Assembly: GCA_020055645.1 (NCBI GenBank)
Contig: CM034547.1
Location: 620,001 to 684,000 of the forward strand
Direction of reading: 5' to 3'
Origin: Tomocerus qinae
Taxonomy: Eukaryota; Arthropoda; Collembola; Entomobryomorpha; Tomoceridae
Length of the DNA stretch: 64,000 bases
Part shown: positions 9,790 through 51,500 of the stretch, one piece after another
How the letters are laid out: the number at the start of each line of letters is the position of its first letter
Numbering within the stretch: position 1 is the stretch's first letter
Program-made: the position numbers and the translations under genes
Notes under the pieces: generated by a model
Told to the model about the DNA's origin: nothing
What the model saw: only the letters and a program-made list of their open reading frames with translations
Databases searched by the model: none

Positions 9790-9976
9790 CAAGCACGTAT
9801 CCAGGAATTTGACCTAGGGGGGGCACACGAAAATATATTGGTAAAATTATGGCATTTTCGCGCGAAGCGCGAAAAATTTTTGGATTTTTAACCGTTATTG
9901 ACAAAAAAATCGTCTTTTTTTGGCGGCTTAGGGGGGGCCCGGACCCCCCCCGGCCCCCCCTCTGGATACGTGCTTG
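9790..9976. mobile_element. hAT-like MITE, perfect TIR and 8-bp duplication
   Basis: Perfect 15-bp inverted termini CAAGCACGTATCCAG / CTGGATACGTGCTTG, flanked by GTTGGAGG on both sides (9782-9789 and 9977-9984). Contains the CGCGCGAAGCGCGAAAA core and long G and C runs near the ends. Confidence 0.9.
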
Positions 9977-9984
9977 GTTGGAGG

Positions 9985-29200: not shown

Positions 29201-32200
29201 AAATGAATTATATTTTGTAGGTCTGTGGATAGCCAAGTGAGTGGGGGGAGTAGCATGCAGGGACATTTGCATCATCCCTCGCCCGATGACCCCCGCCACA
29301 ACTTCACTTCTCCAGAGATGTTTGACAATTCTTTGGTGCAGTACGGGCGGGGTTCAGTGGCGGCGGCGTCTTCCTCCCTGAACAACCAGCGTCTGAGTCC
29401 CTTCATCGCCACATCCACGCCCATTATGGACGACAGTGTACAGACAGACTCTAGCCACTACGTCCGCCATGTTGATGTCCAGGTTTCGGACGACTTTGCC
29501 GAACAAGTCATCAGAAACCGACAATTGGAAATGGCAGGTGACAGACATTTACTGTCGTCGCAGCATAGGAAGGCGGAGCGGAGAAGACGGCGGAGATCCC
29601 CTAGAGACGAAGTTACAAGCACCGACAGCAGCAGTACCGAAAAAAGTCAGCTAATCACCTCGCGTGCGAGTAACAGGTCGTCGCGTAAGTCCCGGCGGGA
29701 CAGCGGAGGAGAGAAGAAAACGGAAAAAAGTCGCGGGAAAAGCAATGAACAAGATTCAAAAGATAAGACTGGTGTCAGACGCCGGGTGGTGCCCCAGGAG
29801 AGCAGCGACGCCATTCTGGATAATACCATGATGAGCGAGAAATTCTCGGAACTGGAGAACGTCGTGGTCAACAGTTCGGAGACAGAAGCCAGGGACGAAG
29901 ACTTGATTGTCCAGGATGTAGCGCGAAAACGAGAATCGAAGGCCAAAAGCACTTCACAATCTTCGGAGACAGACGACGGAGAGGGAAAAAGTCTTGCAAG
30001 ATCGGAATCCAGAAGTCCGTCTAGAAAAAAGTCTGAGGGTAGAGAAAATGAGGACAAATCTTCAGGGGCATCATCCGAAAACGATGGAAACGAAGAGACG
30101 ATAAAAAAATCAAAATCTAGAAACTTGTCTTCGCCTGACAAAATGCGTAAGTCAGGTAGCTCGGCCGAGAAAAGTGACGATGGAGCAACTCGAAACAGGA
30201 CGAGAAGCCCGTCAAGCAAACGTTCTGGAAATTCAATTTTAAAATCTCGAACCCCTTCTGGCAAACGCAGTTCGGTTTCTTGGCATGACGAAGACTCCAA
30301 ATCTCAGAATCCAATAAGTAAGAGAAGCTCAAAATCCATTGAAAGGACTCCAAGTCCTTCCGAACCAATAGATAATTCTCCAGAAAAGAAATTAGCCACT
30401 GTGGACAGCAACGAGGAGGCTGGAACAGTCACTGACGGCGAAATGGAAGAGACTAAAGAGGTGAAATCTCCAAAGGAAAGATTGTCAAGGAAGGACACCC
30501 CGAAGTTGTCCGACTCCAGAAATAAAAAAGGAACATCTCAAAGCACTTCTATGAAACGGGAACATCAAAGCCCTGAAAGCAGCGAACTAAACGACGAGAA
30601 AAGTGAAGTTGCTCTGGACGAACATGAAAATGAACAAGAGAATCTTGAAAATCACTCTGTTCTTGAAGAAAATAAATCATCTTTTAATGGGATAGAAAAT
30701 AGGTCAAGAAGTCATTCCCAATCGAAACATTTATCCAAAAGTCGTTCCCAATCGAAAGATTTATCTAAAAGTCGTTCCCAATCGAAAGATTTATCAAAAG
30801 GTCGTTCCCAATCAAAAGATTTAACTAAAAGTCGTTCCCAATCGAAAGATTTACCTAAAAGTCGTTCCCAATCAAAAGATTTAACTAAAAGTCGTTCCCA
30901 ATCAAAAGATTTGTCTAAAAGTCGTTCCCAATCAAAAGATTTGTCTAAAAGTCGTTCCCAATCAAAAGATTTGTCTAAAAGTCGTTCCCAATCAAAAGAT
31001 TTGTCAAAAAGTCGTTCCCAATCAAAAGATTTATCTAAAAGTCGTTCCCAATCAAAAGATTTCTCTAAAAGTCGTTCGCAATCAAAAGATTTGTCTAAAA
31101 GTCGTTCCCAATCAAAAGATTTAACTAAAAGTCGTTCCCAATCAAAAGATTTGTCTAAAAGTCGTTCGCAATCGAAAGATATGCGACGCTCTCAATCGAA
31201 AGATGATCATACTACAGAGGCTAAAGAACTTAATCGATCTCGCTCCATAAGTCTGACGAAATCCGTGTCTAAACATTCGGAGACAAAAAGTCGGTCGGAG
31301 TCGAGAGAAATACTTCGGCCCGAATCAAAAAAAATCAAAAGTAGATCTCAGTCTAAAGATGCGTCTGAAAAAGGGGCGAAAAGTCGATCGGAGTCGAAGG
31401 AGATACATCGCTCAAAATCCAAAAGTCTAAGTCCGTCTGATTCTCTTTCAAAGGATCGCACCGATTCGGAAGAAAAAGAAGAGGATGAAAACAAAGAAAA
31501 GTCCATTGATGTTGAAAAGGGGGTTTCTTCATCAGAAGAGAAATCTTTGGCGGGGATTGAAATTAGGGAGATAATACCTGATAAGATGGAAGAGGAGCCA
31601 TCGGCAATTGAAGAAAATTTTGAAAATATATTCGGATCATCAAAATCGGAGGAAGACAACAAGGGAGTTTCGCCAGTTTTAGAGGAGCAATTGGAAAACG
31701 AAGGAATTTCGCCAGTTTTAGAGGAGCAATTGGAAAACGAAGGAATTTCGCCAGTTTTAGAGGAGAAATCGGAAAACGAAAGGACGTCGCCAGTTTTAGA
31801 GGAGAAATCTGAAAGTGAGTCGGGGACTGTAGGCGGAGATGATCAAGTGACATCAGAAAAGACAACGGAAATCGACGAGGAATTGTCGGTGAAGACAGAG
31901 GAGGAAGATCTCATCGAAGCGGGAAAACGAATCAATTTGCAAGAAGCCGCAGCGAGACGGCAGAGCAAATCGAATTTGCCACTTAAACCTCCCGTAGCTA
32001 ATCAGAGATCAATCAAATCGCGGAGTAGGTCGATGCCCCGAAATGAGGTCCGAAACCGAAAGCCGAGAGAACCGATTAGTCGGAGGACGAATAACACAGG
32101 GTCTTTAAATGTGTCTCCTCCGAATAAATACCGAAGCAGATCTATCTCTTCGTCGCGGTCGCGGGACCCTGGCGAGTCACGACCTGCAGCTAGGCGAGTG

Positions 32201-35200
32201 CCGCCGAGAACGAAGACATCCGAAGAGCGGGAGATTGAACTGCAAGAAGAGCTTCTGGCTCTGCGGAGGGATGTAGATAGACGACTGGCGACTCATCAGA
32301 GACTGACGAGGAATCCCCGGAGTGGGCGTAGCATTGGAAAGACGACGTCGACAACCACTAGTCGGAAATCCAGTCGGGAAGGCGGGGACAGAGACGAGAG
32401 CCCCAATGTCGGGGATTCGGGATTTAGCGATCAAGTAGGAGTCCCGACATCTGCGTCGGAAGATCACGTCAGACTCCGCGCAGGCAAATCCAATATCAAG
32501 ACTAGGCGGGTGAATCCCCGAAGACCCGTCTCGGGCAAGAGAAAATCCATATTTAGCTCCTCGGCGAAAAAACCGAAACCGAAGAAAGTTGATGATTTCA
32601 ACGGAGTGGATGGACTGGAAGTAGATGACGATCCGGACCTGGAAGAGTCCACTTCCAACGGGGGAGGCTCCGTGACCAGCGAAGAACTGGAGAAGAAAGT
32701 AGCGAGACGAAGGAAGGTGCCTTCCAGACCCAGATCTAAACTTACATTCTCCAGGGGGGAGGACGTCCGCGGGAGTGAGAGCAGGGCCAGCCCCCGCCCC
32801 AAGAAAACCACCGACGTCGACACCCCTGTCTCCGTCACTCAGGCTATGCAGGCCAGCATGAGAAAGTAAGCATCACTACAGTACCGTATTTAGATGTCGA
32901 TTTCGGAGGGGGTAATGATATCATAGGACAATATATATTAGGCATAATCGCGCGAAGCGCAAAAAGTTTTGGCTTATTTTGTCTAAAAAATCACAAAATC
33001 GCGTCATCAAAATTTTTTTTGCCCCCCCCCCTCAATACGGCCTTGCATCTATACCAAGGTACTTTAAATAAATACCATGACGACCTAACAAGGTAGTTTT
33101 TTTAAAAATCTCTCAGAACCACTTATGGGGAATCCAATGCAAGAAATTGCATCTATATTTTCATGCAAGCATCATAACATTTGGTTTAGTCTTAACACTA
33201 CCAGTACCATAACCATTGACAGATAAGTCTTCTTGGCGGAGGTAAATAATATGGTTCATTGCTCAGTACCAGGATGTGGCAGTCAATATAAAGCTTTAAA
33301 GAATCTTGGACTGTCTAAACGATTCTACAGAATACCTATGAATGTCTTCATAAGAAAATCTTGGATGGCAAAGTGTGGGTTAGCATTCGAACCATGTAAA
33401 GATGTTAGAATATGCTCGGACCATTTCGAAGACGATGATGTCCTTATCAATGATCCAAAAAAATCCTTAAAGTCCACAGCTCACCTACTGCTGTTGAACA
33501 GAATTAATAATTGTTATTGTTACCCATTTTTAATTGTTGAATACTTAATGATTTTGTTAAACTGTGTGTGATCATACTAAGAAAATAATATGGATATAAA
33601 TGTGTCTTATCTTATTTTTTTTATAAGAAATTAACAGTAAAAAGTGACAAATAGTACGAATTAAACTATTAGTATTTTCTTCCGTAAATTTACACCTGTC
33701 CTGTATACATACTTTAATATGTATTTCCTTAAGGCCACTTCAGACTCATTCTATTTCTATCGTTGTCATATCATATTATTAACAGTTTCGATTGGTATTC
33801 CCAGCAACACTTTACACTATTTTTTAGGTTGTCCTATTTGCATTGCATTCCTATCGTTTTTGTGTATTATTCATACGTCAAATCAAAGGTATAAAGTGAT
33901 AAAATTGACAAAATTACGAAAGAAACAGACGGTGGCACTCTCACTACAGTAGATCCGTAACTGTGGCAACTAAATAGAAAGGTCGTATTGAGTCCCTACT
34001 GCAATTACACAAAATGGCTTTCAAGGGAGTTTCAATTTTCTGAAAGTTGAACTTTGTTCAACTGAGGTTTTTCTTGACAACGATAGAATTAGAATATGAA
34101 TAGCATGAGTATAAAGTGTCCAAGAATTATATGAATATGAAAGTTATATGAATGTGATAACATCACTATAACGATAGTATCAATCGAAGTATAAACTCAA
34201 AAATCTGTATAGAAATAGCATAACGATGGGAATAGGATGAGTCTAAAGTGGCCTTTAGTGCGTATTGAATTCCCCATAAATGGTTCTGAGTGAATTTCAA
34301 TCCCCACTATCAGCATACCTTGTTAGGTAGCCATGGTGTTTAAAGTACCTTCATCTATACTATATTACAATTTCCGGGAGTATATATGTCTGTATGTCCA
34401 ACCCCATTTTACCCATGTTAACACTTCTAAAAGCAGTTAAATCGTGATGTTGACACTTCTGGAAGCAATAAAACCCTATGTTGACACTTTTAATAGCAGT
34501 AAAACCCTATGTTGACACTTTTAATAGCAGTTAAACCATGATGTTGACACTTTTAATAACAGTAAAACCATGATGTTGACACTTCTGGAAGCAATAAAAC
34601 CCTATGTTGACACTTTTAATAGTAGTAAAACCCAAGATTGACTGTAGTCATAGTGATTGCGTATTAGGTTGGCTCACTTGGGTGTTTGGAAAATGAAAAT
34701 TCAGTTTTTTCATTTGTGGATCCAAATTGGACAATTTGGATCCACAGCCAAATCTGTCTTTCAATGACCAAGGATGGTTGCCATTGGATACGTATGTCTT
34801 GGTGGGTCATAGCTTTGAGTATAGACAAAAAATTGAATTTTATTTTCCCAAACACCCAAGTGAGCCAACCTTACTACACACACACTGTCTTACTAATACT
34901 GCATGAATTTTGAGTAAAACCCTATGTTGACATTTTTAATAGTAGTAAAACCCTATGTTGACACTTTTAATAGTAGTAAAACCCTATGTTGACACTTTTA
35001 ATAGTAGTAAAACCCTATGTTGACACTTTTAATAGTAGTAAAACCCTATGTTGACACTTTTAATAGTAGTAAAACCCTATGTTGACACTTTTAATAGTAG
35101 TAAAACCCTATGTTGACACTTTTAATAGTAGTAAAACCCTATGTTGACACTTTTAATAGTAGTAAAACCCTATGTTGACACTTTTAATAGTAGTAAAACC

Positions 35201-38200
35201 CTATGTTGACACTTTTAATAGTAGTAAAACCCTATGTTGACACTTCTAGGATCAGAAAAGCTTTATGTTGACACTTCTAAAAGTGGAAATTACCCATGTT
35301 GACACTTCTAAAAGCGGCAATTACCCATGTTGACACTTCTAAAAGCGGCAATTACCCATGTTGACACTTCTAAAAGCGGCAATTACCCATGTTGACACTT
35401 CTACAAACGGCAATTACCCATGTTGACACTTCTAAAAGCGGCAATTACCCATGTTGACAATTCTAAACACAGTAAAACCCTAAGTTGACACTTTTAATAG
35501 AAGTAATTACCAATGTTGACACTTTTAAAAGCGGCAATTACCCATGTTGACACTTCTAAAAGCGGCAATTACACATGTTGACACTTCTACAAGCGGCAAT
35601 TACCCATGTTGACACTTCTAAAAGCGGCAATTACCCATTTTGACAATTCTAAACACAGTAAAACCCTAAGTTGACACTTCTAATAGAAGTAATTACCTAT
35701 GTTGACACTTCTAGAAGCAACAAATACCTCTTTGAACACTTCTGAAAGCAGTAAAACCCTATGTTGACACTTCTGGAAGCAGTTAAACCCTATGTTGACA
35801 CTTTTAATAGTACAGGGTGTCAAACTAGGATTCAGGCCCTATGTATCTAAAGAACCGTAAGTAGCACGGCAAAACCGTTGATACCAATCGAAAGCCCGTG
35901 CAAAGTTACATTGAAACACCGGTTTTCATCAACTTATTCCTACGCATTCGCTTACACCTGCAGTTCTCCCAAAAAAAGTTGAAAATATAAATAAATTACT
36001 AGCTAATTCGTGACCAAATCTCTCGCGGAGGCTGAATGAAGGCAGCGGTACGTTGTTGCCACTGTCTCCGCTGGGAGGTATGGTGGATGAGCGGCAACAG
36101 CATAATAGCGGAGACAGTGGCAACGGCGGCAACACGCTACAACCACTACCGGCAACAGCGGCGACACGCTGCAACCACTAGCGGCAACACTGACCAGCGG
36201 CAACAGAGACACATTAATCTGATTTCCTCTGTTGCCGCTAAACCTAGCATAAGCCAGCAGTGCACTGTTGCTCTGAGCTCAATGCTCTAAGACAAGAGCA
36301 ACACAGAGGATACCAGATTAATGAGTCTCTGTTGCCGCTGGTCAGTGTTGCCGCTAGTGATTGCAGCGTGTCTCCTCTGTAGCCGCTAGTGGTTTTAGCT
36401 GTGTCGCCGCTGTTACCGCTAGTGGTTGTAGCGTGTCGCCACTGTTGCCGCCAGTGGTTGTAGCGTGTTGCCGCCGTTGCCACTGTCTCCGCTATTATGC
36501 TTTTTCCGCTCACCCCCATACCTCCCAGCGGCAACGGCGGCAACAGCGGAAAAAGTGACAACACTGACAACACAGTACCGCTGCCTAAATTCAGCTACCG
36601 CGACAGATTTGGTCACGAATTAGCTAGTAATTTATTTATATTTTCCACTTTTTTTGGGAGAACTGCAGGTGTAAGCGAATGCGTAGGAATAAGTTGATGA
36701 AAACCGGTGTTTCAATGTAACTTTGCACGGGCTTTCGATTGGTATCAACGGTTTTGCCGTGCTACTTACGGTTCTTTAGATACATAGGGCCTGAATCCTA
36801 GTTTGACACCCTGTAGTAAAACCCTATGTCGACACTTTTAATAGTAGTAAAACCCTATGTCGACACTTTTAATAGTAGTAAAACCCTATGTCGACACTTT
36901 TAATAGTAGTAAAACCCTGTGTTGGCACTTTTAATAGTAAACCCCATGTTGGCACTTATAATAGTAGTAAAACCCTATGTGGGCACTTTTAATAGTAAAC
37001 CCCATGTTGGCACTTATAATAGTAGTAAAACCCTATGTTGGCACTTTTAGTAGTACTAAAACCCTATGTTGGCACTTTTAATAGTAGTAAAACCCTATGT
37101 AGGCACTTTTAATAGTAGTAAAACCCTATGTAGGCACTTTTAATAGTAGAACCTTATCTTGGCACTTTTAATAGTAGTAAAACCTTATCTTGGCACTTTT
37201 AATAGTAGTAAAACCCTATGTTGGCACTTTTAATAGCACTAAAACCCTATGTTGGCACTTTTAATAGTAGTAAAACTCTATGTTGGCACTTTTAATAGTA
37301 GTAAAACCCTATGTTGGCACTTTTAATAGTGGTAAAACCCTATGTTGGCACTTTTAATAGTAGTAAAACCCTATGTTGGCACTTTTAATAGTAGTAAAAC
37401 CCTATGTTGGCACTTTTAATAGTAGTAAAACCTTATGTTGACACTTTTAGAATCAGAAAAGCTTAATATTGATACTTCTAAAAGCTGTAAATACCCTTTG
37501 TTGACTCTTCTATACGCAGTAAAACCCTAATTTGACACCTCTAATAGTAGCAAATACCTATATTGACCCTTCTAGGGTCAGAAAAACGTTATTTACATAA
37601 TAGCAGTAAATGCGGGGATGGGTAGACTACATGTCGATGAAAGATTTTTGTTTGGAAAGGAGCGGGGAGATGGAAGCTATATTAAATTATGTTATTTGGG
37701 AAGGGGTTGGGTGGGGTCTTTACATGTCCATTAAAAATTGTTATTGGAGTAGGGGCGTGAATGTGTCGACTACATGTCGATGAAGGATTTGTTGTTTGGA
37801 AAGGGGCGGCGAGGTGGAGACTGCATGTCGAAGAAACGTTTGTTGATTAGGAAGGGGCGGTGAGGTGGCAATACTGAATGGGTATGGATTCGCTGAGGTT
37901 GTATAGAAAACTGTAGTATGAAATATCAGGGCACTTGAGCTTGGGATTAGTGTTATTTGAATCTTTAATTTTGCTTCATGGGAAACAGAGCCCTGTCGTA
38001 GGACGGGCTAAACAGCTAGTTACTAAATATACTCCCTCAGGTGTGCAGCCAAACACATTTTCGAATCCGGAAAATATGTCACAATTTTGAGGCGTTTTGA
38101 GACAACAATCTGTTGAGAGCCATATGCCCCCTCGCTTCGGGCCGATTCTACGAAATGCTTGGCAGCTGTATGTAGTCGATAAATATTATAATTTTTGTAC

Positions 38201-40926
38201 AGAAAAATCGTGGCAGCTGTATGATTTAATTATTACTTTTAATTTTCACCTTGGCATGATTTTTTGTAGATATCAGTTGGAAAGGACGATTTTTCAAGAA
38301 TTGCTGGAGCTGAAGCGACTGCAGATCCGAGCTGGGAAGGCCAACGAGCAAGTGCTGGTGAAGAGATTGGCAGACAATTACCGCAAAGCTGGACTCAGTA
38401 TTAATTTCAGAGAATACGACGGACCCTACACCTTCCGAAATTTCGAAAAATATCTATATGGTACAGTGTACAAAATTTACCACTTTTTAGCCTTTTTTAC
38501 CATCACAGTGGGAAAAATGCACTTAATGGTAAAAATGCATTTAATGGTAAAAATGGTAAATTTTAGCGATTTTTTAGACAGCTGAGCACAGATACACTAG
38601 ACTTCCTAAAATATAAATTTTAAAACTTTTTTTTCTATGAAATATTTCCAATTAGCCACTTAATCAATTAAATTATTCATATTTATTTGATTGTACACCC
38701 AAAGTTATAAAAAATGAGAAAAGAAAGATTGTATTGCTATCGCCCATTTAAAATTGATGCTAATTTAATTGCAATTAATTTCTCAATCGGCAAGGGTAGT
38801 TAGCGTCCCCATTGGTTGAATCCTACTATGATTGATGAACACCTATCAATTTGTGACAACAATGATCATCTGCTAAGCTATTTCATACTTTGGCACCGAA
38901 TTTTATTCAAAATTCAAACACGAAATTTAAATGAAACTATTTTTTACCATTTTTACCACTTACCACTACTTTTTAGGTAGTGGTATTTAACGTTAAATAC
39001 CATTAAAACCACTTACCACTGGTAAGTGGTAAATGGTATTTTGTACACTGATATGGTACAAATGTTTATAAATTAATATAATTCACAAATGATGTAAGAA
39101 TTAAATACTAATTAAACAATTGATTGTGGCTATATAGAGCAGCTGCGACTGCTGCAAGCGAACAGAAGACTCCTCCCTCGATTTGCGCCGTCGGATGACT
39201 TGGAGAAATTAAGTGTGGCTCTCAAGAAGATGAATGCTACGAAATTACCCTTCCTAGATGACGTGGAGCGATCCGAGAGTTCTTGTGACCACACTCAATG
39301 CACACACACCACGCATCGATGTCACCATGCTGCCCATGCCTACACCGGAGTCCCTTGTGCTGCTTACAGTACTAAATTCTATTACATTATAGGGCCGGGC
39401 AGTGTACGATCTAGACCCCCATTATGAATATTTCGTTACCGCACTGGGCTGTACCCATTCTCGCTATGTCAACCGCTAAAAATGTTGCCTTTGTCAACGG
39501 ACTGACTACGTCGCCCGTAAGGCCTTAAAGTGAAAATAACGTGGAGTGAATTGTCCACATAATTTTTCAACGGCTCTGACCATCGACTTTTTCAGTTACT
39601 CACAAGGTATCACACGGGTTTTTTAATTTTTAGGAAGACACCCACGACCTAGGGTTTTTTTATTATAACTATAGGCATAAATGCAACCCTATACTATACC
39701 ATATAAGAAAACTACAGCTGACAATATCAACATCTGTCTAATCTTGCAACTGCTATTATTTACGCATATAAAAACAAAAATTAAGGGACAAAAAGTTTAT
39801 TGTTAACATATTTTAACATCACAGCAAACACGTTATTAACCTTTTCTGACAAAAAAATCGACTTTTCCTGGAAATTTAGGGGGGGGGGCTAGCACCCTCG
39901 ACTTGGCCAACCCCAACGATACATGCTTGCGATACATTTATTTCACGTAAAAGTGTAAAAGCTACAATTTGTTTCCACCTGAAAGTATATTTGTTCACAT
40001 TTTTGAATAGAAATATGAGAAAATTGGTATGTTTTGCTTATCTAGATGGAGCTTTAGTGCACATTCTGCACATTAGTGTATGTTTTGTAAAAGCCCAATA
40101 AACCCAGGGTTTTTTCAGTGAAGCGGGGTGGGTTTTTTGCCCAAAAACCCATACCCATAAAAAACCCAAACCCACAACCATTACTCAGGACAGTATTATG
40201 GACGTAGTCAGTCCGTTGACAAAGGCAACATTTTATTTTAAATTTAAATGGTGGTATTTAACTTTAAATCCCATTAAAAACCACAAGCTTTAAACTTAAT
40301 GAAATAAAAAGGTATAATGGTAATTATTTCAATAAACATTCGAAGACAATTTTCAAATATTTCATTTTTCAAGGGAAATTCGTTGAAATAAGAAAATTAA
40401 TGGCATGTTTGGCCACAATGTATTTTGTACACTGTCCCAGTGATAGAAAATAATGATGGTTGGTGTTACAGTTACAAATGTTTGATTGGCAGTAGGGAAA
40501 GGTCGGAAGAACGGTTTTCTGCCCCGGGTGAATCCTCTGAGGTCGCCGGGTCCTACCCAGAAGGATCCGCTAACCCGAAGTGTGATTGACGGTAGCGGCC
40601 TGTCTTCACAGGCAATGCAGATCTCCATCTCGCCGAGGGCGGACACACAGTCTCCGATCACCCTGGAGGTGCAGCAAGGAGCTAACACCCAAGTATTCTC
40701 ATTGCCAACGCAGAGTTTGGATCCGACGAAGAACTATTACGTCAGTCTGTCCATCAAACCGAACCCGAGTCCGAACATCTCCACCCCACCCGCCCCCACC
40801 CAGGCTGACATCAACCAGGCCCTAATTGACGAGTCGGGCTCCATCAGTGCTCCGCCTCCTCCCGCCGAACCCGATTCATACGTAGATGTAGCTCTAGATA
40901 GGGATAAACACAACAAGAGTCTGTAG
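11023..40926 (+). CDS. Ankyrin-repeat protein with Ser/Arg-rich middle and Cys/His-rich C-terminus (10 exons)
   Basis: Exons: 11023-11214, 11293-11551, 12147-12425, 15983-16057, 24138-24583, 25020-25201, 29221-32865, 38270-38460, 39138-39368, 40493-40926. All introns begin GT and end AG, phases match at every join, and the total is 5934 nt (1977 residues plus stop). The start is the first in-frame ATG, with A at -3 and G at +4. The N-terminal third is ankyrin repeats (TPLHLA, HPIHYAA, TPAHCGASKG, CPIHLAA-type motifs), which normally mediate protein binding. The middle is highly charged low-complexity sequence; the C-terminus has a helical Leu/Arg-rich segment and a Cys/His cluster. No membrane segment is seen, so a cytoplasmic or nuclear scaffold is inferred. 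I do not recognise a named orthologue. A donor-like GTAAGT overlaps the last codon, so another 3' exon is possible. Confidence 0.85.
11293..11551 (+). CDS. Ankyrin gene exon 2
   Basis: Enters in phase 0 after TTTTCAG and leaves in phase 1. It holds two to three ankyrin repeats, including ALHFCAESG and YTPLHLAVITGNRDAVVSLI, and ends within the next repeat (HWATG). Confidence 0.85.
11687..11914. mobile_element. Diverged hAT MITE in ankyrin intron 2
   Basis: Same family as 17340-17589: CAGACGGTATAACTAAATTA, the internal TTTGTCTAAAATGAGT, a G run, and the end TTCAATACAGCCTTG. No target duplication is recognisable. A (TTAGG)n tract starts about 20 bp later. Confidence 0.65.
11934..11953. repeat. 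Interstitial telomere-like (TTAGG)n
   Basis: About four TTAGG units in a row, next to a MITE end. TTAGG is the arthropod telomere repeat. Confidence 0.7.
12147..12425 (+). CDS. Ankyrin gene exon 3
   Basis: Phase 1 on both sides. The repeats EVEILDVLLANGA and HPIHYAAQMCG are followed by an inserted Ser/Gly-rich loop and then GLAILRRLIQHGAPVDVRD. The donor is GCAG/GTATCT. Confidence 0.85.
12517..14164. mobile_element. 1.65-kb non-autonomous DNA element in ankyrin intron 3
   Basis: Ends in AGCCTGGTACACAG and CTGTGTACCACGCT, inverse with one mismatch. It contains a strong inner palindrome (about 13325-13400 with 13525-13615, around GGCTAGGATTTAATTTGGGA). A diverged relative of its left two-thirds occurs at 21430-22200. 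No transposase frame is present. Confidence 0.6.
14165..15982. other. Ankyrin intron 3, remainder
   Basis: No exon or element recognised. A short imperfect palindrome (AAGGTGAGTGTAATTG / inverse) lies at about 14246-14322. Confidence 0.4.
15983..16057 (+). CDS. Ankyrin gene exon 4 (75-nt microexon)
   Basis: A short exon between TTACAG and GTACCT, phase 1 on both sides. It codes GDAILSLVNAGARVDAEDKDGLT, the second half of one ankyrin repeat and the start of the next. Joining to exon 5 restores DGLTALHCAASRGH, which supports both splice sites. Confidence 0.85.
16391..16625. mobile_element. Probable MITE remnant with GCGCGAAAATTTTTG core
   Basis: Shares the GGCGCGAAAATTTTTGATAT core and the closing GCCCCCCTGAATACGCGACT with the hAT-like MITEs. 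Its ends and duplication are not resolved. It is directly followed by (CCTAA)n. Confidence 0.45.
16626..16653. repeat. Interstitial telomere-like (CCTAA)n
   Basis: About five CCTAA units immediately after a MITE remnant in ankyrin intron 4. Confidence 0.7.
17340..17589. mobile_element. hAT-like MITE, 250 bp, with ATTGAAAT duplication
   Basis: Begins CAGTACTGTATTTAG and ends CTCAATACAGCCTTG (imperfect TIRs). It is flanked by ATTGAAAT at 17332-17339 and 17590-17597. It contains two CGCGCGAAGC cores and a G8 run. Almost identical to the copy at 22212-22460. Confidence 0.9.
17598..19000. other. Ankyrin intron 4, no gene recognised
   Basis: AT-rich. Weak inverted similarity between about 18450-18490 and 18925-18960 (AATTTGTCAAAAC / inverse) hints at an old element. 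Confidence 0.35.
19000..19960. mobile_element. Foldback element with duplicated ends
   Basis: CAAATCTAACCCTATG with CCGGTGTGTGTTAAAATGGG at about 19205-19272 is repeated inverted at about 19882-19950. A CCCTATGGAAACAGCCTAGA...GACTTCCGTACAGGGCAG stretch near 19042 recurs directly near 19815. No coding frame. Confidence 0.55.
20254..20777. mobile_element. MITE with 8-bp duplication ACTTGTGA
   Basis: The ends AGGCCACTTTAGACTCAT and ATGAGTCTAAAGTG are inverse. ACTTGTGA occurs at 20246-20253 and 20778-20785. A close copy lies at 33732-34254 inside the THAP element. The 8-bp duplication suggests the hAT or P superfamily. Confidence 0.75.
21234..21419. mobile_element. Short THAP/P-like MITE with ACTATTTC duplication
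   Basis: Its right end GACGACCTAACAAGG(inverse)...AAAGTACCTTG matches the terminus of the element at 33055-34351. The left end is a shortened version (ATGCTATAGTGGGGATTGAA). Flanked by ACTATTTC at 21226-21233 and 21420-21427. Confidence 0.7.
21706..21893 (-). pseudogene. Exon-like segment embedded in a DNA element
   Basis: An open frame codes MCTKVIIVANSAFLYSLFDI followed by QLTFSWEKPVVMDTAMHRSL and WFYPIQTG. It is missing from the related element at 12690-13340, where unrelated DNA lies between the same flanks. It looks like a captured exon piece; no protein family recognised. Confidence 0.25.
22212..22460. mobile_element. hAT-like MITE, 249 bp, with GTGTAGTA duplication
   Basis: Same family and almost same sequence as 17340-17589. 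GTGTAGTA flanks at 22204-22211 and 22461-22468. Nested in a palindromic element, so it is the younger insertion. Confidence 0.92.
22794..23213. mobile_element. 420-bp palindromic MITE at TTAA
   Basis: TTAA then GGGCCCAGTACCTTTAAATT, and inverted at the other end before TTAA. The arms are about 175 bp around a 70-bp centre. A second copy of exactly the same length is at 44508-44927. TTAA targets are typical of piggyBac-type transposition. Confidence 0.85.
23214..24137. other. End of ankyrin intron 4, no gene recognised
   Basis: A 99-codon plus-strand frame at 23557-23856 has no family resemblance, no splice context and no repeat. I do not call it. Confidence 0.4.
24138..24583 (+). CDS. Ankyrin gene exon 5
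   Basis: Follows an 8 kb intron. It carries about four and a half consecutive ankyrin repeats (ALHCAASRGHTDC, TSLFYAVTLGHADC, TPAHCGASKGQLE, LPLHEAVISRRKD, CPIHLAALNNNVE). It enters in phase 1 and ends in phase 0 at AAG/GTAAGC. The sequence is noticeably more GC-rich than its flanks. Confidence 0.9.
25020..25201 (+). CDS. Ankyrin gene exon 6 (last ankyrin repeat)
   Basis: Begins ILIDYRADLN in phase 0 after TTGGCAG, completes the repeat begun in exon 5, then runs through TALDAAMFRGNSAVAKFLQLHGG. It ends in phase 2 at AACAG/GTAATA, and the split Arg codon is completed by exon 7. Confidence 0.9.
25640..25812 (+). mobile_element. HINE right-end fragment in ankyrin intron 6
   Basis: A core remnant (TTTTGATAATCAATGTTAAT), then CACTCAGGCGAGCTTCTGTT and the hairpin-like TACTGCTTGCCGTTCGG. 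The left end is absent. Confidence 0.65.
26843..27310 (-). pseudogene. Relic coding DNA with STPR-like repeats
   Basis: Three or more diverged copies of a roughly 23-residue repeat are visible in different frames: DDPVMRTQEKQWDAMAYQIA followed by RLDPAIRSPEKRGMQ, and RDAIAHKNARLNS followed by VCIPEKQKDAVATF. An acidic/basic stretch, SVQENLQEDQERANAKTEK, lies upstream. Such RxxDPxxRxxEK repeats occur in STPR-domain proteins and in the N-terminal part of some Helitron/Helentron replicase polyproteins. Frameshifts and lack of a start make it a pseudogene. The link to Helentrons is inference; no helicase or Rep motif is seen here. Confidence 0.35.
27340..28060. repeat. Degenerate GAAATGTAAAA-type repeats
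   Basis: ACGAAATGTAAAA and close variants recur at irregular spacing (for example near 27458, 27850 and 27874), with GAAAGTAC between. It looks like a decayed tandem array or coding repeat; unit not resolved. Confidence 0.4.
28239..28276. repeat. (GACA/GACG)n microsatellite
   Basis: CAGACAGACGGACAGACAGA and its continuation, about nine tetranucleotide units. Similar GTCC/GACA tracts mark HINE left ends, but no other HINE sequence is adjacent. Confidence 0.7.
28300..29220. other. End of ankyrin intron 6, no gene recognised
   Basis: AT-rich; nothing recognised other than the acceptor of exon 7. Confidence 0.4.
29221..32865 (+). CDS. Ankyrin gene exon 7: large Ser/Arg/Lys/Glu low-complexity exon
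   Basis: Codes 1214 residues without a break, rich in Ser, Arg, Lys, Glu and Asp, with many SP and RS dipeptides (likely phosphorylation sites, inferred). It contains a 16-unit tandem repeat of a 10-residue unit (about 30711-31190) and four 13-residue units of the type SPVLEEQLENEGI (about 31660-31815). A short predicted coiled coil, around IELQEELLALRRDVDRRL, lies near 32235-32290. It enters in phase 2 after TTTTGTAG and ends in phase 2 at AGAAA/GTAAGC. Reading straight on meets TAA at 32868, so an unspliced transcript would end four codons later. Confidence 0.88.
30711..31190 (+). repeat. Coding minisatellite: 16 x 30 bp (SRSQSKDLSK)
   Basis: Sixteen in-frame 30-bp units coding variants of SRSQSKDLSK. 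Inner units are nearly identical at the DNA level (AGTCGTTCCCAATCAAAAGA); outer ones diverge (HLSK at the start, DMRR at the end), the usual pattern of recent internal expansion. Confidence 0.95.
31660..31815 (+). repeat. Coding repeat: 4 x 39 bp (SPVLEEQLENEGI)
   Basis: Four units of 13 residues; the first two are almost identical (TCGCCAGTTTTAGAGGAGCA), the last two change to EEKSENERT and EEKSESESG. Confidence 0.9.
32879..33045. mobile_element. hAT-like MITE 13 bp after an exon donor
   Basis: CAGTACCGTATTTAG...CTCAATACGGCCTTG, internally shortened relative to the 250-bp family members. Flanks CATCACTA and CATCTATA match at six of eight bases. It lies just inside the intron after exon 7. 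Confidence 0.75.
33251..33571 (+). CDS. THAP-domain ORF inside a transposable element
   Basis: From the ATG at 33251 the 106-residue product has C4, C9, C55 and H58 with P29 and W38, the C2CH zinc pattern of THAP DNA-binding domains (C-x2-4-C-x35-53-C-x2-H). The ICSDHFEDDD motif follows. The usual closing AVPTIF-type box is absent: the frame runs into unrelated hydrophobic sequence and stops, so no transposase domain follows. It lies between the inverted repeats of the element at 33055-34351, in an intron of the ankyrin gene. THAP domains are the N-terminal DNA-binding domains of P-element transposases, so this is probably the relic of one rather than a host gene. Confidence 0.6.
   Translation: MVHCSVPGCGSQYKALKNLGLSKRFYRIPMNVFIRKSWMAKCGLAFEPCKDVRICSDHFEDDDVLINDPKKSLKSTAHLLLLNRINNCYCYPFLIVEYLMILLNCV
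33732..34254. mobile_element. Nested MITE, copy of 20254-20777
   Basis: About 95% like 20254-20777 along its length, with ends GGCCACTTCAGACTCATTCT and ATGAGTCTAAAGTGGCC. Sits within the THAP element; its own duplication is not evident. Confidence 0.75.
34664..34873. mobile_element. Mariner-like MITE
   Basis: Inverse ends TTAGGTTGGCTCACTTGGGT and its complement, with the TTAGGTTGG start seen in mariner elements, next to TA. An inner palindrome (GTGGATCCAAATTGGACAAT...) is present. No transposase. Confidence 0.7.
35813..36814. mobile_element. 1-kb foldback element inside the minisatellite
   Basis: Ends ACAGGGTGTCAAACTAGGAT and its complement. The outer arms (about 200 bp) are near-perfect. 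The centre is built of GCGGCAACA-type units, again as inverse halves (36030-36240 and 36300-36560). TAGTA on both sides may be a 5-bp duplication, but the repeat context makes this ambiguous. Confidence 0.85.
37591..38269. other. End of ankyrin intron 7
   Basis: A few diverged units of about 60-70 bp (TACATGTCGATGAAAGATTT...GGAAAGGGGCGG) near 37630-37870, then unique DNA. Confidence 0.5.
38270..38460 (+). CDS. Ankyrin gene exon 8
   Basis: Codes a predicted helix (IFQELLELKRLQIRAGKANE) followed by FREYDGPYTFRNFEKYLY. The low-redundancy sequence looks strongly constrained. It enters in phase 2 after TTTTGTAG and leaves in phase 1. Its donor lies inside the target-site duplication of a MITE that begins 4 nt further on. 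Confidence 0.85.
38464..39050. mobile_element. hAT-like MITE inserted at a splice donor
   Basis: Ends CAGTGTACAAAAT and ATTTTGTACACTG, with ATATGGTA at 38456-38463 and 39051-39058. The duplicated 8 bp includes the last five bases of exon 8 and the GTA of its donor. The inside contains ACCACTT/AAGTGGT short inverse repeats. Confidence 0.9.
39138..39368 (+). CDS. Ankyrin gene exon 9 (Cys/His cluster)
   Basis: Begins QLRLLQANRRLLPRF and continues through DDLEKLSVALKKMNATKLPF to a Cys/His-rich run (CDHTQCTHTTHRCHH, then VPCAAY). The spacing suggests metal binding, but no standard zinc-finger pattern fits exactly. Enters in phase 1; ends at TACA/GTACTA in phase 1. Confidence 0.8.
39369..40492. 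mobile_element. Ankyrin intron 9 with inverted repeats
   Basis: A perfect 30-bp pair, TGTTGCCTTTGTCAACGGAC... at 39483-39512 and inverse at 40201-40230, encloses a truncated CGTATCCAG-family MITE remnant (about 39840-39930, with a G9 run). A segment near 40230-40440 resembles the MITE at 38464. Confidence 0.55.
40493..40926 (+). CDS. Ankyrin gene exon 10 (C-terminus)
   Basis: Starts after GATTGGCAG in phase 1. It codes 144 codons of Pro/Ser-rich sequence with a fairly ordered stretch (SPITLEVQQGANTQVF) and ends KHNKSL-stop. An AATAAA follows about 50 nt after the stop. Because the stop TAG overlaps a good donor (TA/GTAAGT), a longer form ending in a later exon cannot be excluded. Confidence 0.8.
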
Positions 40927-42339: not shown

Positions 42340-42525
42340 TTAATATAAATGCCCGGATTCTAATAATGGACTCGAATTTGCCTTTTCATCTTTGTTGGAT
42401 TCTACATTTCCTCGGAGATCCTCGCCACTCTCTGAACCACTCTCTTCTAAACTCCCACGTTCCTCCTGCTCCATTTCTATCTCATCGTAAAGCAAACACA
42501 GCTGGTCATTCACAATCGACGATTG
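42340..42525 (-). CDS. per: period terminal exon
   Basis: Codes [20 protein letters not shown] and an acidic Ser/Glu tail ending LLESGHLY-stop. VNxQLxxLYxxxE is the end of the conserved C-terminal block in insect PERIODs. Acceptor AAATTGCAG. Confidence 0.92.
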   Translation of the reverse strand, partial: QSSIVNDQLCLLYDEIEMEQEERGSLEESGSESGEDLRGNVESNKDEKANSSPLLESGHLY

Positions 42526-45500
42526 CTGCAATTTGAAAAAAAACTATATAAAAAATAAATTGACACAGAGCCCTGAAACGGGCTCGACCCCTTATCTGTA
42601 CCTTTCCAAGAATCTTAAGAGCCTGCAAGTCTTTCTGGAGGATTTGGCTCAAATCCGTCTGCGGTATTTTATAGCGGTAAACGATATCTTCGGTCATCTT
42701 GATATTTTCCATCCAGGGCGGCACTTTGCTGCGCATCCTTCGTGTTTTCTTCAGTGCAATGCCCGCCATTTCTGTTTTTTCCGCATGATTGGCCCACATC
42801 ATTTCTTGATCGCCATCCTCCGATTGACACGTGTCATAACTGTCCATCTTTTCTTTATTTTCATTTTCTGAATTATTTTTACGCCAGGACCGGACTGGTG
42901 GATCCAAAATGGAATTTGACGAGGAGGATGAACTACACTCCTCCAAATACTTGCTCCCGAATCCATCAGAACTAGAGGCGGGAGAACTGTCGTTTTCCAT
43001 CTCTGGTTCCTCTCTTTCTAGGGAGTTTTTATCCGTATTCTCCCGCTCATTACTAGTATCATTATCAACTGATTCGAGTTGTGGGCAGTTCTGCTGAGAT
43101 GTACTATTGAAAGAATCCTGAATGGATATCGATGTACACCCAACAGAACCCTGCGCATCCGTTGTCAATGACAGCCCGGCAGTCGAAGAGTTCAAATGTT
43201 TTTCCACCCTGGGGGATTGATGGGCCACGGGGGTCGGCATTGTGATCATGTTGATCGTTGACTGAGTGAAGGATTGAGTACTTGCCCTATTTGCCGTATT
43301 TTGTGAACCCGCTTGGATAACTCCCGGGATATTCGGCATTAGAACCGGTGCACTTTGACCCACTACTTGAAACGCTATAGGCTGTAAAACCACCCCACCC
43401 GGGACCGCATACTGAACTGAAAATTCCACAATAATAATAATAATAATAAATTGATTTTTGCAAAAGTAGATCCTTTCGTCAGTTCGTATTATGAGCATTC
43501 GGACATTCATGACCAAGGCCGCAGCCAGAAAAAAAATTTGGGGGGGGGGGGACCGAGAAAAAATACCATAATTTTCGCGCTTCGCGAAAATAGCAAAAAT
43601 TAGCATTTTTTTTGGTTTTTAGACAATAATTCTATGTGTCTAAAATCGAAAAAAAATCGCTAAATTCTCGATGCCCCCCGAAACTTTTTTCTGGCTGCAG
43701 CCCTGTATCTTTATGGGGTCATTTTTCATTCTAAAATTGGCTGAATTAATAAGTAAACCTGAGGGAAAAATTTTGAAAATCGCGCCATGAATTACACAGG
43801 GGATACCTCTACTCACTTTCGAGGGACCTAACCTCCTAACCTAACCTAACCTAATTAAAACAATAACATTGATAGGTTAGGATTTACCCTCTGCTTTACT
43901 CGAGCCAGCCAGGATTTGCGTTAAAAGACGATCAGGCACCCGATAACACAACGACTTAACAACCAAACCAACCAACATTACAATTACTCAGAAATTCGCA
44001 ACCCAAGCAAGCCTTCTATCAAGTGAAATAACTGCAGTGAAAATTTGCATTATTTGCTTAGCTTGAGAATTTAAAACCAATAATTTAGACTGAAAAATAA
44101 GTCATTGTTGGATTGTCGGAGGATATTCAGATAATTCAGATCGATTTTTGTTAAACTTACGCGTGCGAAAACCATATGAATATAAATATGCGGAGATAAA
44201 ATGAGAAAAATCAAAATTTGTTAACCTTGTTGCGGAATGAAATTTTGCTGACCCGGAACAAAGACAAGAGACGGTCGATAATTCCCTTGGTTAATGTCAA
44301 CACTAACAGGTGAAACAACTTGATTAATTCCGGGAAGTGGCACTGGAGCTGTTGGCTGGTACAAATGATATCCAGGCCCCCCAGGTTGAGCACCTAATTT
44401 CTCCGCCACATTTTGCCCACTTTTCAGTTTTAATGATTTTTATTAGTTAGGAGTTTGGAGTCAATACTTAAAATAAAAAAATAATGTTAAGTCTGGATAC
44501 AATGTAATTAAGAGCCCAGTTCCTTTAAATTGGGAAATCTCTGATGACTATCAAAATACATGTAAAAATTGCTTTACAACTCTTGGAATTCTGTCTCAAG
44601 TTCTTACTCGATTTTCTTGTGTGGCACATTTTTGGAATCCTGGATATATTGTAGACCCCCTCATTGTACAAAATATACGATATATTTACTCATTAATATA
44701 TCTTATTGTGATTATAATTTTGTAAACGACAAAATCTGCTAAAAAATTTAAATGTCGTATATTTTGTACAATGGGGTGGTCGACAATATATTCAGGATTC
44801 CAAAAATGTGCCACAAAAGAAAATCGGGTAAGAACTTGAGACAGAATTCCAAGAGTTTTAAAGCAATTTTTACATGTATTTTGATAGTCATCAGAGATTT
44901 CCAAATTTAAAGGAACTGGGCTCTTAAGGGAAGTGTATGAATCTGAAAGTGGGAAAACTCGATAACTTTGTATATAGTAAAATAACCATGGATATAATTT
45001 TCAATGAAGCAGAATAGTCAATTTATTGCACAAAAGTAGTTTGCAAAGCTCTTTCTTGTTCTATCTCTTCTTGCTACTCATCACTTAGGCCCATATTTTT
45101 AATAAACACTCCCACTCTAATCTCCACTCTTTGAGAGTGTAAGGTATGTATCGAGGTACCTTTCACTCTCGAAAAAGTGCGTAAAAAGTGCGTGAGAGTG
45201 AGAATCGAGTCATTAAAAATATGGGCCTTATCACCTTTGAATCTAAATATCTCCGAACCGAATATTACTTATTGGGACTGTGTAGACCAATGTGTTATAG
45301 GAACTTTTAACTTTTCTTCTCTCGACTGGGTTGAATTTAGGCAACGGTACCTCGTTGCCGTTGTTGACGGTAAACATTGTTGCTAATTCATCTTTTACCA
45401 AGGGCAACAAAGGCAACACTCTCATTTGGTCATGTAAAACTTATCATATATAACAAACCTAACCTAAATGAAATAAACAAATTCGACAGTTATCTATAAA

Positions 45501-48500
45501 AATTATTAGATTAGGTTCGTTACATACAAAACTGATGGAATTTCATTTTTCCCCAGATCCCCCCTTATAATTTGTTTATTTCATTTAGGCTATAGGTTTG
45601 TTATATCCGTAAAATATGGACCGGTAGCAAGATTCGTCTATATGGTATTATAAAATATTAGTATAAAGTCATTGATGAGGGTGTTGCCGGTGGACGCGTA
45701 CCTTAAGGAAATGGTGCATGTTTAAAAGACTCCGATTGTTTTTGCTACAAATGGGGATGTTGCTGGGTAACCAGCTAAAATTATCATAGAGGGTATATGG
45801 GAATAGGAAAAATTCGTACTTTTTTTTGGAAATTCCCTAAGGATCTGAGACCACTGGTCCTACACCCATACAATAATTTTTTAGAAATTCTTCGAAACTT
45901 ATTCTATAGTAGTTATATTTAAAATTCCACATTTTGGTCTTCGACTTGAAGACAAAGCACGTATCCAGGAATTTGACCAAGGGGGGGCCCACCAAAATAT
46001 ATTGGTAAAAGGAAGACATATTCGCGCGAAGCGCGAAAATTTTTTGGATTTTTAACCTTTTTTGACAAAAAAATCGCCTTTTTCTGAAGATTTAGGGGGG
46101 CCCAGGCCCCCCCGGCCCCCCCTCTGGATACGTGCTTGCGTTGAAGATATCATCGTTTGAAACCGAAAAATGTGTTTTTTTGTGCAATTTATATTGCGAA
46201 TTTATATCTTCAAGTCAAAGACCAAAATGTGGAATTTTCAATATAACTACTGAAGAATAGGATTCAAAAATTTTTTTAAAATTTACTATATGGCCTTAGG
46301 ACTTGTGATTTCAGATCCTTAGGGAATTTCCAAAAAAAAGTTACTGGCAAATATGATAGTCGAGAAATCATTTTCGTTTCTATGCACCTGGGCTTTAAAG
46401 ATAAGGTCAGCGTATTCCTAGTTACAGCTAGTTACACTGACTATCAAATTTGCCCGTAACTTTGAAAGCCCTACACACACATTGTAAATTTGAAAAAGAT
46501 ACATCGAAACTTTCTTCATCGTTTCCTTATTGAAAATTTCACACTTTCGACTTTGTTTTCTAAGATACCGCAGTTTGTAAATTGAATCTTAGATCTTAGA
46601 CAACAAAGATGAAAGTGGGAAATTTTCAATAAGGAAACAATGAAGAAAGTATCGGTGCATCTTTTTCAAATTTACTATGTGTGTAGGACCAGTCGTCTCA
46701 GATCCTTAGGGACTTTGCGAAAAAAAGTCGAAATTTTGGCTTTGCTTATGACCAACTTGGTAGTCAAGTGGCTTAGTAAAATGTCTGATCTGTCAAGTAA
46801 TTATATATCCTTGGCTGGATGGGCGCTAAAATATAAATCTTTCAAAACATTTATTGTGTGTGTTGGTGTTTTGGAATACCGTTGAATTGATTACATGGAA
46901 CGACTTCTACGAGGGAATCAATTTTAAAAGACTTTACTCCTAAAGAAATCCTAAAGCCAGCTAATGGCTAATACTATGTTCAGTGCAGCTTCATCAAGCA
47001 TACATAACAGATTAAGATTATCTTAACAGTCAACTAACATTAAAGACACTGAAAATTAAACTGATTTGTGAACCAATCGAATAGTCACGATTAGATGTGG
47101 TATAAAGGGCAACTCTAAAATAATTTAAAAAATCAGTTAATATATTGCATTGGAGGAAGAAGTACTTTTTAGGAATCCTTTAGGAGTATAGTCTCTTAGG
47201 AGTGATTCCCTAGTAGGAATCGGTCCCTGACACCCTTTCTGCAGGCTTTTAAAAAAGCTACTTTGTCCGTATTATCGCATTACTTATCCAAAGCACATAA
47301 TATCTTCCCTTCATAAATAAGTAGATGTCCTATTATTATAAAACCTACTGCAAGCCGTAACAGAAGCTCGCCTGATTAATGGTAAACGTGTACACATTTT
47401 GGTAGACGAAAAGCACTCGCACGTAGCACAAAACCGAGCGTACGGATTTTGATCAAACTTTCAGAATTGGGTCTTTATATATGTAGCTATGACATATTAA
47501 AAGCTAAAATTCAGACATTGATATTATAAGGAAACGAAGCTATATTATTTGAAAAATCAACACAAAATCAAAATTGATTAATGTTGATTATGAAAATCAA
47601 CAGAAAATCAAAATTCATTAATGTTGATTAAGAAAATCAACAGAAAATCAAAATTCATTAATGTTGATTATGAAAATCAACAGAAAATCAAAATTTTTAT
47701 TAATGTTGACTATGAAAATCAACAGAAAATCAAAATTCATTAATGTTGATTAGGAAAATCAACAGAAAATCAAAATTCATTAATTTTGATTATGAAAATC
47801 AACAGAAAATCAAAATTCATTAATGTTGACTATGAAAATCAACAGAAAATCAAAATTGATTAATGTTGACTATGGAAATCAACAGAAAATCAAAAGTCAT
47901 TAATGTTGACTATGAAAATCAACAGATATTCAATCTTGATTGATTATGAGTATTAAAATCTTCAGAAAATTAAAATCGGTTAATAAAGATTATCAAAATT
48001 TAAAGGAAATCAGAAATGGAAATTTGACTATAAAATTGAGTAAAAATCCAAAATAGTTTTTTTTTCATCTTATAATAGTTATTTTCCGGTTTAATTTGCT
48101 TTATTATAAAATCTCAAATTTGGTAGAAGCGGATTGAAATGTTTTATACTATCCCGCTAACAATTTATAGGAAACGCCATTGAACTTTTTAATGTCCATT
48201 TAATACCAAATTTTCACTTTGACTATCAAAATTAAGACAAAGTGAGCGCGCGTTATCTCAGCAACCAATGAACCGATTAACCCCCAATTCAATAGGGATC
48301 GTCAGTGGTCCATAGGCATTGTTTTTGCCAAGTTTGGTCAACATCCGTCATTGCTTTCGAAAGTTATTGTGGCGACGGACGTAGGGACGTACAGACGTAC
48401 GGACAGACTGTGCGGTTCTATAAGCTCGCCTGAGGAAGCGAGCTAAAACGTTATTTATAAGTGAAAGCTGTGTGTTCATTTCATAATTCATAAATAACGG

Positions 48501-51500
48501 AAGCGCATCGAATGCCAATATTCAAGGTACTCCTTTTTAGCTCGCCTGAGAAAGCGTGCTTATAGAATCGCACAGTCTGTCCGTCCGTCCGTCCGTCCGT
48601 CCGTGTACACGATAACTTTTGAAGACATTGATGGATTTCAACTAAACTTGGCAAAAACATTGCCTATGGACCTGTGACAAAGCCTATTGAAAATGGGCCA
48701 CATTGGTCCATAGGTTGCTGAGATGCCGCGCGCTTACTTTGTCTTCATTTTGATAGTCAAAATGAAAATGTGGCATTAAATAGACATTAAAAGTTCAAAT
48801 GTGCTTCCAATAGATTGTTAGCGTGATAGTAGAAAATATTAAAAGCCGCGTCGACCAAATTTAAGATTTTATAACAAAGTAAAAAAAACCGGAAAATACC
48901 TATTATATGACGGAAATAAATCTATTTCGCATTTATATGCAAATTGATAGTCCAAATTTATATTTTTCGAATTGCTTTTCATTATGATAGTCAATATTAA
49001 CCGATTTTGATTTTCTTTTGATTTTGATACTCAATATTAATCAACTTTGATTTTTTGTTTATTTTGATACTCAATATTAGTCAATTTAGATTTTTTGTTT
49101 ATTTTAATAGTCAATATCAATCTATTTTGATTTTCTGTTGATTTTCACAGTCAATGTTAATCTATGTTTATTTTCTGTTGATTTTAATAGTCAATATTAA
49201 TCTATTTTGATTTTATATAGATTTTAATAGTCAATATTAATCTATTTTGATTTTATGCTGATTTTAATAGTCAATATTAATCTATTTTGATTTTCTGTTG
49301 ATTTTAATAGTCAATATTAATCTATTTAAATCAAAATAGATTAATATTGAACTAATTTGAATAACAATTTACTAATCAAAATAAATGTATTTCTATTATT
49401 GTTCCACCAAAAAATGTGTACACGGTCCCCTTCACTCTTGCGAGCTTCTGTTACGGCTTGCCGTAGGTTTTTAAACGGTGGGCTATAGTTGTGTTGTGTA
49501 CAAAGGGTATACAATGTAGTGTCACAGTCAAAATCGCAATTCTTATATTCCCACAGAAAAGTTCAATATATGCATAGGACGGGCTTTGGATTCTGGTTTT
49601 TTGAATAGTATTCATAATTTTAAATGATATCCATAGAGATTTTATTATTTACTAAAACATGAAATATTTTTCCTGACCGCTATTCTTAATTCTTATTTCA
49701 ATTCAAGAAATGTTTTGAAAAACTTCAAATGAAATTATACAAATACGCATGCATTCTCAGTTCAGTTTATTTCAAGGGAAAATTGAAATAAATACAATGC
49801 GTATACATGTGAATGGGCATTCGTAGTATCATGAATCATCTATTTTATTGCCTAATAGTTCATTTCAAGTAGACCTTCATTCTGGAATATGATATTGAGC
49901 AATGAGAATGAGAAATGTATAGATTGAGCTATTTACATGCACGTCTTATGCAGTTATTACACTATAAATATTATGCCATGAACTATGAATCATCTATTTT
50001 TATTACCTACCATACCAGTTTCCCTTTCAATGTAGACTTTTATTCTGTAATACGATATTGAGCATGAGCAATGAGAAACAAGTATAAACCGGAAGAACAC
50101 ACATTGTGGATATATAAATATAGTGCATAATCGAACAAGGAATGATGTGATTAATATTAAAGTATCGTACAAACAAACTCTTCCTACAATGACCTTTAAA
50201 ATGATAACTCAGCAAGAAAATTACTGATAACTGAAAATTGTGTGAATACTAAATATATCTAAACATTAGACCGTTTCTGGTATAACTTAAAGTCATTATA
50301 CTGAAATCAGTGAATCACTTTATTTTTATAATACAAACTAAGACTTACCAGGGTAAAGATAGTGTTCCACAATTTCAGATGTAATAAATTTCCAAATTAT
50401 GGAATCTGGGTTGTGCTCAGGTGGACACAGGCTGGCACTTTGGAAGTTGACAAATCCCATGAGTTTGCCTTCCGTGGGCAGCTCTGCCAAGCAATCTCCA
50501 GCAGGGCCGCAGCGAGGGGGGGGGGGCACCGGAGCCCGTGCCCCCCCCCCCCCGAAATCGAGAAAAACAAAGAAATTTTTCTGAAATTTTTTTCTAGCTG
50601 CGGCCCTGGTCTCCAGAGTCCATGTCGGTAATGGCATATAAACAGCCGGACTTGACACAATCTTGACAGTTGTAAAATTAAATAAAATTATTCAAAATAC
50701 CCTTTAATGGAAAGCACGTCGTCCCAGAAAGCAACACCAGGAAGAGAAGTGCAGAACACATATTGAAAATTTTCAAAACCGAATTTTAACATAGAAATTG
50801 ACTCTGGTAGAACTTAAACTACTATTTAAACTTAAATTAAAAATCCATCAGCGTTTAAATGCTATTAAGAAGTTTACCAAAGCTAAGAAGGAAAACTTGT
50901 CTAAGAAAGGCTATCGACACCTGGATACTACTGAGGAACAAGGATCGGGTGGTCAGGAATCACCAGAAACGGTCTAATGTTTAGATATATTTAGTATTCA
51001 CACATTTTTCAGTTATCAGTAATTTTCTTGCTGAGTTATCATTTTAAAGGTCATTGTAGGAAGAGTTTGTTTGTACGATACTAATTTAATATTAATCACA
51101 TCATTCCTTGTTCGATTATGCACTATATTTATATATCCACAATGTGTGTTCTTCCGGTTTATACTTGTTTCTCATTGCTCATGCTCAATATCGTATTACA
51201 GAATAAAAGTCTACATTGAAAGGGAAACTATGGTAGGTAATAAAAATAGATGATTCATAGTTCATGGCATAAAATTTATAGTGTAATAACTGCATAAGAC
51301 GTGCATGTAAATAGCTCAATCTATACATTTCTCATTCTCATTGCTCAATATCATATTCCAGAATGAAGGTCTACTTGAAATGAAAACTATTAGGCAATAA
51401 AATAGATAATTCATGATATGACTGCATTGTTACTTGCAACAATTCAAAATTTGCTAAAATGTCCCCATTTGGGTAATCTATAGAATTTTCGTCATAGAAA

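Follow-up and report, generated by a model that had tools for sequence, protein, structure and literature searches.

A MITE-like element at a splice donor of an ankyrin-repeat gene in Tomocerus qinae, with the donor contained in the duplicated target site

How might a gene tolerate a transposon that inserts directly at the end of one of its coding exons? This question is raised by an ankyrin-repeat gene of the collembolan Tomocerus qinae (NCBI GenBank assembly GCA_020055645.1, contig CM034547.1, positions 620,001 to 684,000 of the forward strand). This stretch of 64,000 nucleotides is referred to as the window, and all positions are counted from its first letter. At a 5' splice site of the gene stands an element resembling a miniature inverted-repeat transposable element (MITE), and an exact 8-bp duplication, ATATGGTA, lies on either side of it at the exon end (38456-38463 and 39051-39058). 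The duplicated target consists of the last five exon bases and the GTA of the donor, and a GT donor is present in both copies. The upstream copy reads ATATG/GTACAG, completed by the first bases of the element, and the downstream copy reads ATATG/GTACAA. The initial annotation had proposed an insertion at this site (38456-39058), this composition of the duplication and these two donors, and all three are borne out to the base.

The element and its duplicated target

The 13-bp terminal inverted repeats (TIRs) of the element are perfect and lie directly inside both target copies, with base 14 breaking the match. The direct match between the two donor regions reaches 10 bases, because the element and the old intron both go on with CA. 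GC content is 29.5% in the element, against 44.7% in the affected exon and 19.5% in the old intron. A frame scan of the element, made without a protein-library search, found no wholly internal stop-to-stop frame of at least 60 codons; the frame of the affected exon extends into the element up to 38582. Furthermore, TGGTAA/TTACCA motifs recur near both element ends. Short, AT-rich and non-coding, with inverted ends and a target-site duplication (TSD), the stretch 38464-39050 is by these features a non-autonomous, MITE-like DNA transposon. The coordinates of the locus are collected in Table 1.

With the base composition of the window, the chance of an 8-base flank match is 2.8e-5, and that of a 13-base inverted match is 4.0e-8. 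Simulation of 40 first-order Markov sequences as long as the window produced no pair combining an 8-bp repeat with inverted ends of at least 11 bases. The window itself contains 11 pairs with an 8-bp repeat at 13 bp of inverted ends. In eight of them the 8-mers are palindromic, that is, the inverted repeat continues, and these pairs are therefore not duplications. The three non-palindromic pairs are the element described here, 9790-9976 and 10038-10334. The latter two probably represent copies of transposons from other families. The first of them (187 bp; 9782-9984 with its targets) has 15-bp ends, CAAGCACGTATCCAG, and an exact non-palindromic 8-bp target, GTTGGAGG. The second (297 bp; 10030-10342 with its targets) has 27-bp ends beginning with CATATATATAG and likewise an exact non-palindromic target of 8 bp, CCACCACA.

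Table 1. Features of the insertion locus, in window positions
Feature	Positions	Strand	Basis or remark
Affected coding exon, 7 of 9 in the model ("exon 8" in the initial annotation)	38270-38460	+	Frame and phase continuity; ends at left donor
Left target-site copy ATATGGTA	38456-38463	+	Five final exon bases and donor GTA; exact repeat
MITE-like non-autonomous element, 587 bp, 29.5% GC	38464-39050	.	Flush TIRs, TSD, length, GC
Left TIR CAGTGTACAAAAT	38464-38476	+	13/13 complementary to right end; CAG = donor +4 to +6
18-bp subterminal tandem repeat (38509-38555) with three ATG/GTAAA donor-like sites	38509-38561	+	Exon ends 38528, 38546, 38555
Strong element-borne donor-like site CTG/GTAAGT	39019-39027	+	Exon end 39021; -8.8 kcal/mol, best GT in 38300-39130
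Right TIR, exact reverse complement of CAGTGTACAAAAT	39038-39050	-
Right target-site copy ATATGGTA	39051-39058	+	Original donor ATATG/GTACAA inside; exact repeat
Inferred ancestral intron, 82 nt	39056-39137	+	Sequence and gene model; TACTAAT before acceptor ATATAG
Present intron if left donor used, 677 nt	38461-39137	+
Next coding exon	39138-39368	+	Split codon G/AG (Glu)

The host gene and the predicted product of the left donor

Nine exons of the ankyrin-repeat gene, between 11023 and 40926, join to 5,859 nt, or 1,952 codons with a single terminal stop, and the phases are consistent at all eight junctions. GT donors and AG acceptors were picked by reading frame. An open frame of this length across eight joins is good support for the nine-exon model, in which the exon end at 38460 is provisionally placed by reading frame and phase. 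The exon end given in the initial annotation agrees with this model, its label "exon 8" does not, and the model could miss an exon. The shortest of the other introns measures 78 nt, and the intron after exon 2 measures 595 nt. Codon usage was scored in blocks of seven codons, with six of the gene's other exons as the training set. The score is positive in six of the nine blocks of 38271-38459 and negative in all six following blocks up to 38585. Among eight pieces submitted to Pfam, three matched ankyrin repeats, one a PAS-type domain below cut-offs and one Period_C above the cut-off, and two had no match. The affected exon gave one match far under the cut-off (E 0.16), which was not used. A search of solved structures with the joined exon pair reached a best E of 0.21, so no homolog backs the junction.

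The plus-strand open frames include one of 1,220 codons rich in Ser, Arg and Lys. A 30-bp tandem repeat in the long coding exon (30709-31180) is translated as repeated KSRSQSKDLS. In the intron preceding the affected exon, a 31-bp unit is tandemly repeated in three arrays (34411-34633, 34913-35807 and 36813-37565).

Eight exon ends were tried for the affected exon (38397, 38460, 38528, 38546, 38555, 38976, 39021 and 39055), and only 38460 yields the full product of 1,952 codons. Early stops follow after 1778 codons from 38528, 1784 from 38546, 1787 from 38555, and 1772 from each of 38976, 39021 and 39055. The end at 39055 corresponds to the right donor, which is the original one in its old intron-side context; if it were used, the element would stay in the mRNA and translation would stop inside it. 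Joining the flanks without the element yields an ordinary exon/intron boundary. The two donors share every base between -5 and +5; at +6 the left has G and the right A. The reading frame is unchanged with the exon end at 38460, in keeping with the earlier claim that the upstream donor gives the same mRNA. The rescue logic, in which the left copy and the first bases of the element would together form a GT donor for that mRNA, is sound.

In the explanation that fits these findings best, a non-autonomous DNA transposon would have hit an 8-bp target made up of the last five exon bases and the first three bases of an 82-nt intron. Before the insertion, the site would have been a single ATATGGTA running directly into CAAATGTTTATAAATT. 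Staggered cutting is an established part of transposition, and such cutting followed by repair would have copied the target, consistent with the exact duplication and the flush inverted ends. The left copy retains the exon bases and the GTA, and the CAG of the element supplies C and A at +4 and +5 as before and turns +6 from A to G, so that an unchanged mRNA is possible. If the left donor were spliced to the old acceptor, the element, the right copy and the old intron would be excised together, leaving the mRNA as it was, and the intron would have lengthened from 82 to 677 nt. The ancestral length is close to that of the shortest other intron of the gene, and the TACTAAT within 39056-39137 is presumably the branch point. 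A part of the transcripts would probably arise from the right donor or from donor-like sites in the element and be non-productive. This explanation as a whole, from a hAT-like insertion with a copied target to use of the left donor, a lengthened intron and some non-productive transcripts, is given a probability of about 0.85.

If so, the locus illustrates, exact to the base, how a gene can be spared when a DNA transposon hits a splice donor and its staggered cut leaves usable copies on both sides, and it illustrates one route by which introns lengthen. Such cases are predicted by the mechanism. For each donor, there are seven ways in which an 8-bp target can include the complete GT, which corresponds to approximately 0.19% of random insertions along the gene span. 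Genomes rich in such elements should accordingly hold many cases.

Donor strength and rival explanations

Several points weigh against the preferred explanation, some concerning the donors and others the exon model. The left donor is weak. Donor strength was expressed as pairing with the 5' end of U1 in kcal/mol, which is only a proxy for splicing. By this measure the left donor is the second weakest of the eight in the model; the other seven span -9.5 to -1.7, and only the one at 39368 is weaker. Over nine bases, the left and right donors both reach -4.1; over eleven, the left one pairs slightly better, at -5.0 compared with -4.1. Of the GTs on the plus strand of the window, 3,228 in all, 14.7% pair at -4.1 or better, so the site is not outstanding. 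In addition, the element carries seven sense donor-like GTs at -5.3 or stronger, compared with a shuffle mean of 1.34 and none of 500 shuffles reaching seven. Nine sense sites lie at or below -4.1 (mean 3.2; 0/500 as high), three at or below -6.5 (mean 0.48; 5/500) and one at or below -8.0 (mean 0.16; reached in 74/500), and six antisense sites lie at or below -5.3 (mean 3.0; 28/500). Most of these sites repeat a single motif and are hence not independent; the three ATG/GTAAA sites pair at -5.3 each. According to the portion of the source available, transposons frequently bring cryptic splice sites into host genes (PMC7605248). Mis-splicing is plausible here, given a weak donor, seven stronger donor-like sites in the element and an intact 82-nt intron behind the right copy.

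The same insertion could thus have had a damaging outcome, with the right donor or the element-borne donors dominating and the mRNA being mainly truncated or decayed. Element sites pair at up to -8.8, compared with -4.1 for the native donor, and are more numerous than in shuffled sequence, the old intron still has its own donor, and all six downstream exon ends tried lead to early stops. On the other hand, the rest of the 1,952-codon frame is open and no decay is visible, although a young insertion, which the exact duplication and ends would fit, would show none yet. Damage is a fair rival outcome, but such dominance is considered somewhat unlikely. It would exclude neutrality, not the insertion history. 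Of the interpretation in the initial annotation, the element, the duplication, the donors and the frame are upheld, while easy neutrality is opposed by the weak donors, the stronger element sites and the intact 82-nt intron.

As for the exon model, the phase agreement arises partly by construction, since the splice sites were picked to suit the frame. The last exon block (38439-38459) has a codon score of -10.75 and 14% GC; owing to this negative score, codon usage alone cannot fix the boundary at 38460. Furthermore, the exon end 38397 stays in frame and gives 1,931 codons. The true exon might therefore end elsewhere, for instance at 38397, which would place the element within an ordinary intron. 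However, 38397 pairs poorly with U1 (-2.3 kcal/mol), and its use would cost 21 codons including DGPYTFR, a stretch with 62% GC and a slightly positive score; this alternative is judged improbable. That the element itself made the intron is very improbable: Introners with TSDs can draw a 5' splice site from the duplication, as stated in the accessible part of PMC9860276, but the acceptor is found 79 bases past the right target copy, where an 82-nt intron complete with a donor persists, both outside the element, so that an old intron was lengthened and no new one made.

The left donor adjoins the exon and is separated from the acceptor by 677 nt, and the right donor heads the intact 82-nt intron. 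Tentatively, the locus might serve as a natural competition test between these two 5' splice sites, which do not differ between -5 and +5, with repeated TGGTAA decoys between them. If true, the ratio of donor use would tell whether exon or intron definition prevails here, and whether transposition generally has TSD rescue of splice sites as a by-product that is partly protective.

Element family, known systems and other features of the window

The element is probably a hAT-like non-autonomous DNA transposon, short of a proven hAT. The 8-bp duplication, ATATGGTA occurring twice, and the short, perfect ends of 13 bp are both as in hAT elements. P-type elements also produce 8-bp duplications, and the element may be of P-type origin. 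Inverted ends of 5-27 bp are given for hAT elements in the part of PMC3517528 consulted. The target matches neither nTnnnnAn, the consensus for Hermes (PMC2803484, in part), nor nnnTAnnn, the consensus for Buster (PMC3517528): position 2 is T, but so is position 7, and positions 4-5 are TG; this is a single site. Such a consensus is a preference and not a rule, because the Hermes table itself, in the section available, has exceptions (PMC2803484).

Copies of the element within the window are pieces, namely 40243-40284 (86% over 42 bases) and two weak matches of 32 bases each (20330 and 33808; 81%, E 0.009). Ends of 13 bp with at most two mismatches number seven in the window, against 3.4 expected, and 6 of 100 shuffles reach seven. 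One more 13-bp end is exact, an isolated right end, CAGTGTACAAAAT, at 40422-40434 in the next intron. The same intron contains the 42-bp element-like stretch at 40243-40284, an inverted repeat of 34 bp without mismatch (39479-39512/40201-40234) and, at 39400, CAGTGTAC. No matching target duplication was found around these features, and 39400-40434 is perhaps a related or nested element. A pattern of the TIR and its next bases had no match in viral contigs and one in genome contigs. The latter, within a minus-strand frame (1272-1538) of an uncultured proteobacterium, was rejected as chance, with only 23-25 bases aligning at 87-88%.

Splicing of maize Ds is a further comparison, on which the literature search returned nothing useful. 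Among the literature matches listed, no title or abstract opening describes a MITE whose target duplication copies a donor belonging to an already existing intron; as subscription papers were mostly outside the scope, this negative is weak evidence that no such case is published. As far as the consulted part of PMC3517528 describes it, Mar, a hAT MITE of Drosophila willistoni, resembles the element in being about 600 bp long, AT-rich and non-coding, with short ends starting with CAG and an 8-bp duplication. Mar differs in its ends, CAG(G/A)GGTAGGC, and its TSDs, nnnTAnnn, from the CAGTGTACAAAAT and ATATGGTA of the element. Introners, according to the same partial source as above (PMC9860276), share with this locus a 5' splice site from a duplicated target, an element that is spliced out, and, in most Introner families, an unchanged mRNA length. 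Unlike in Introners, the 3' splice site here is old and outside the element, an existing intron is lengthened with no new one created, and one full copy is known. An insertion in Bassia AUX/IAA16, in the available text of PMC12277486, is likewise recent; its target duplications are exact, and splicing uses new GT/AG sites on its flanks. There the element is a retroelement, the duplication measures 5 bp and the protein is altered, whereas here a DNA element is found and the protein would be unchanged if the left donor is used.

Downstream of the ankyrin-repeat gene, pieces of a PERIOD-like clock gene lie on the minus strand (42509-43618 and 62308-62517), with Period_C above the cut-off and the PAS-type matches below; such a gene points to an animal as the source. 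Two 112-bp stretches (22948-23059 and 44662-44773) have inverted ends CATTGTACAAAAT, and each is apparently part of a longer dispersed repeat, as suggested by similar surrounding translations. Similar 40-bp tandem repeats are dispersed over the window in both orientations (4550-4850, 5921-6092, 8007-8109, 47553-47976, 48987-49327, 58476-60098 and 60763-61385).

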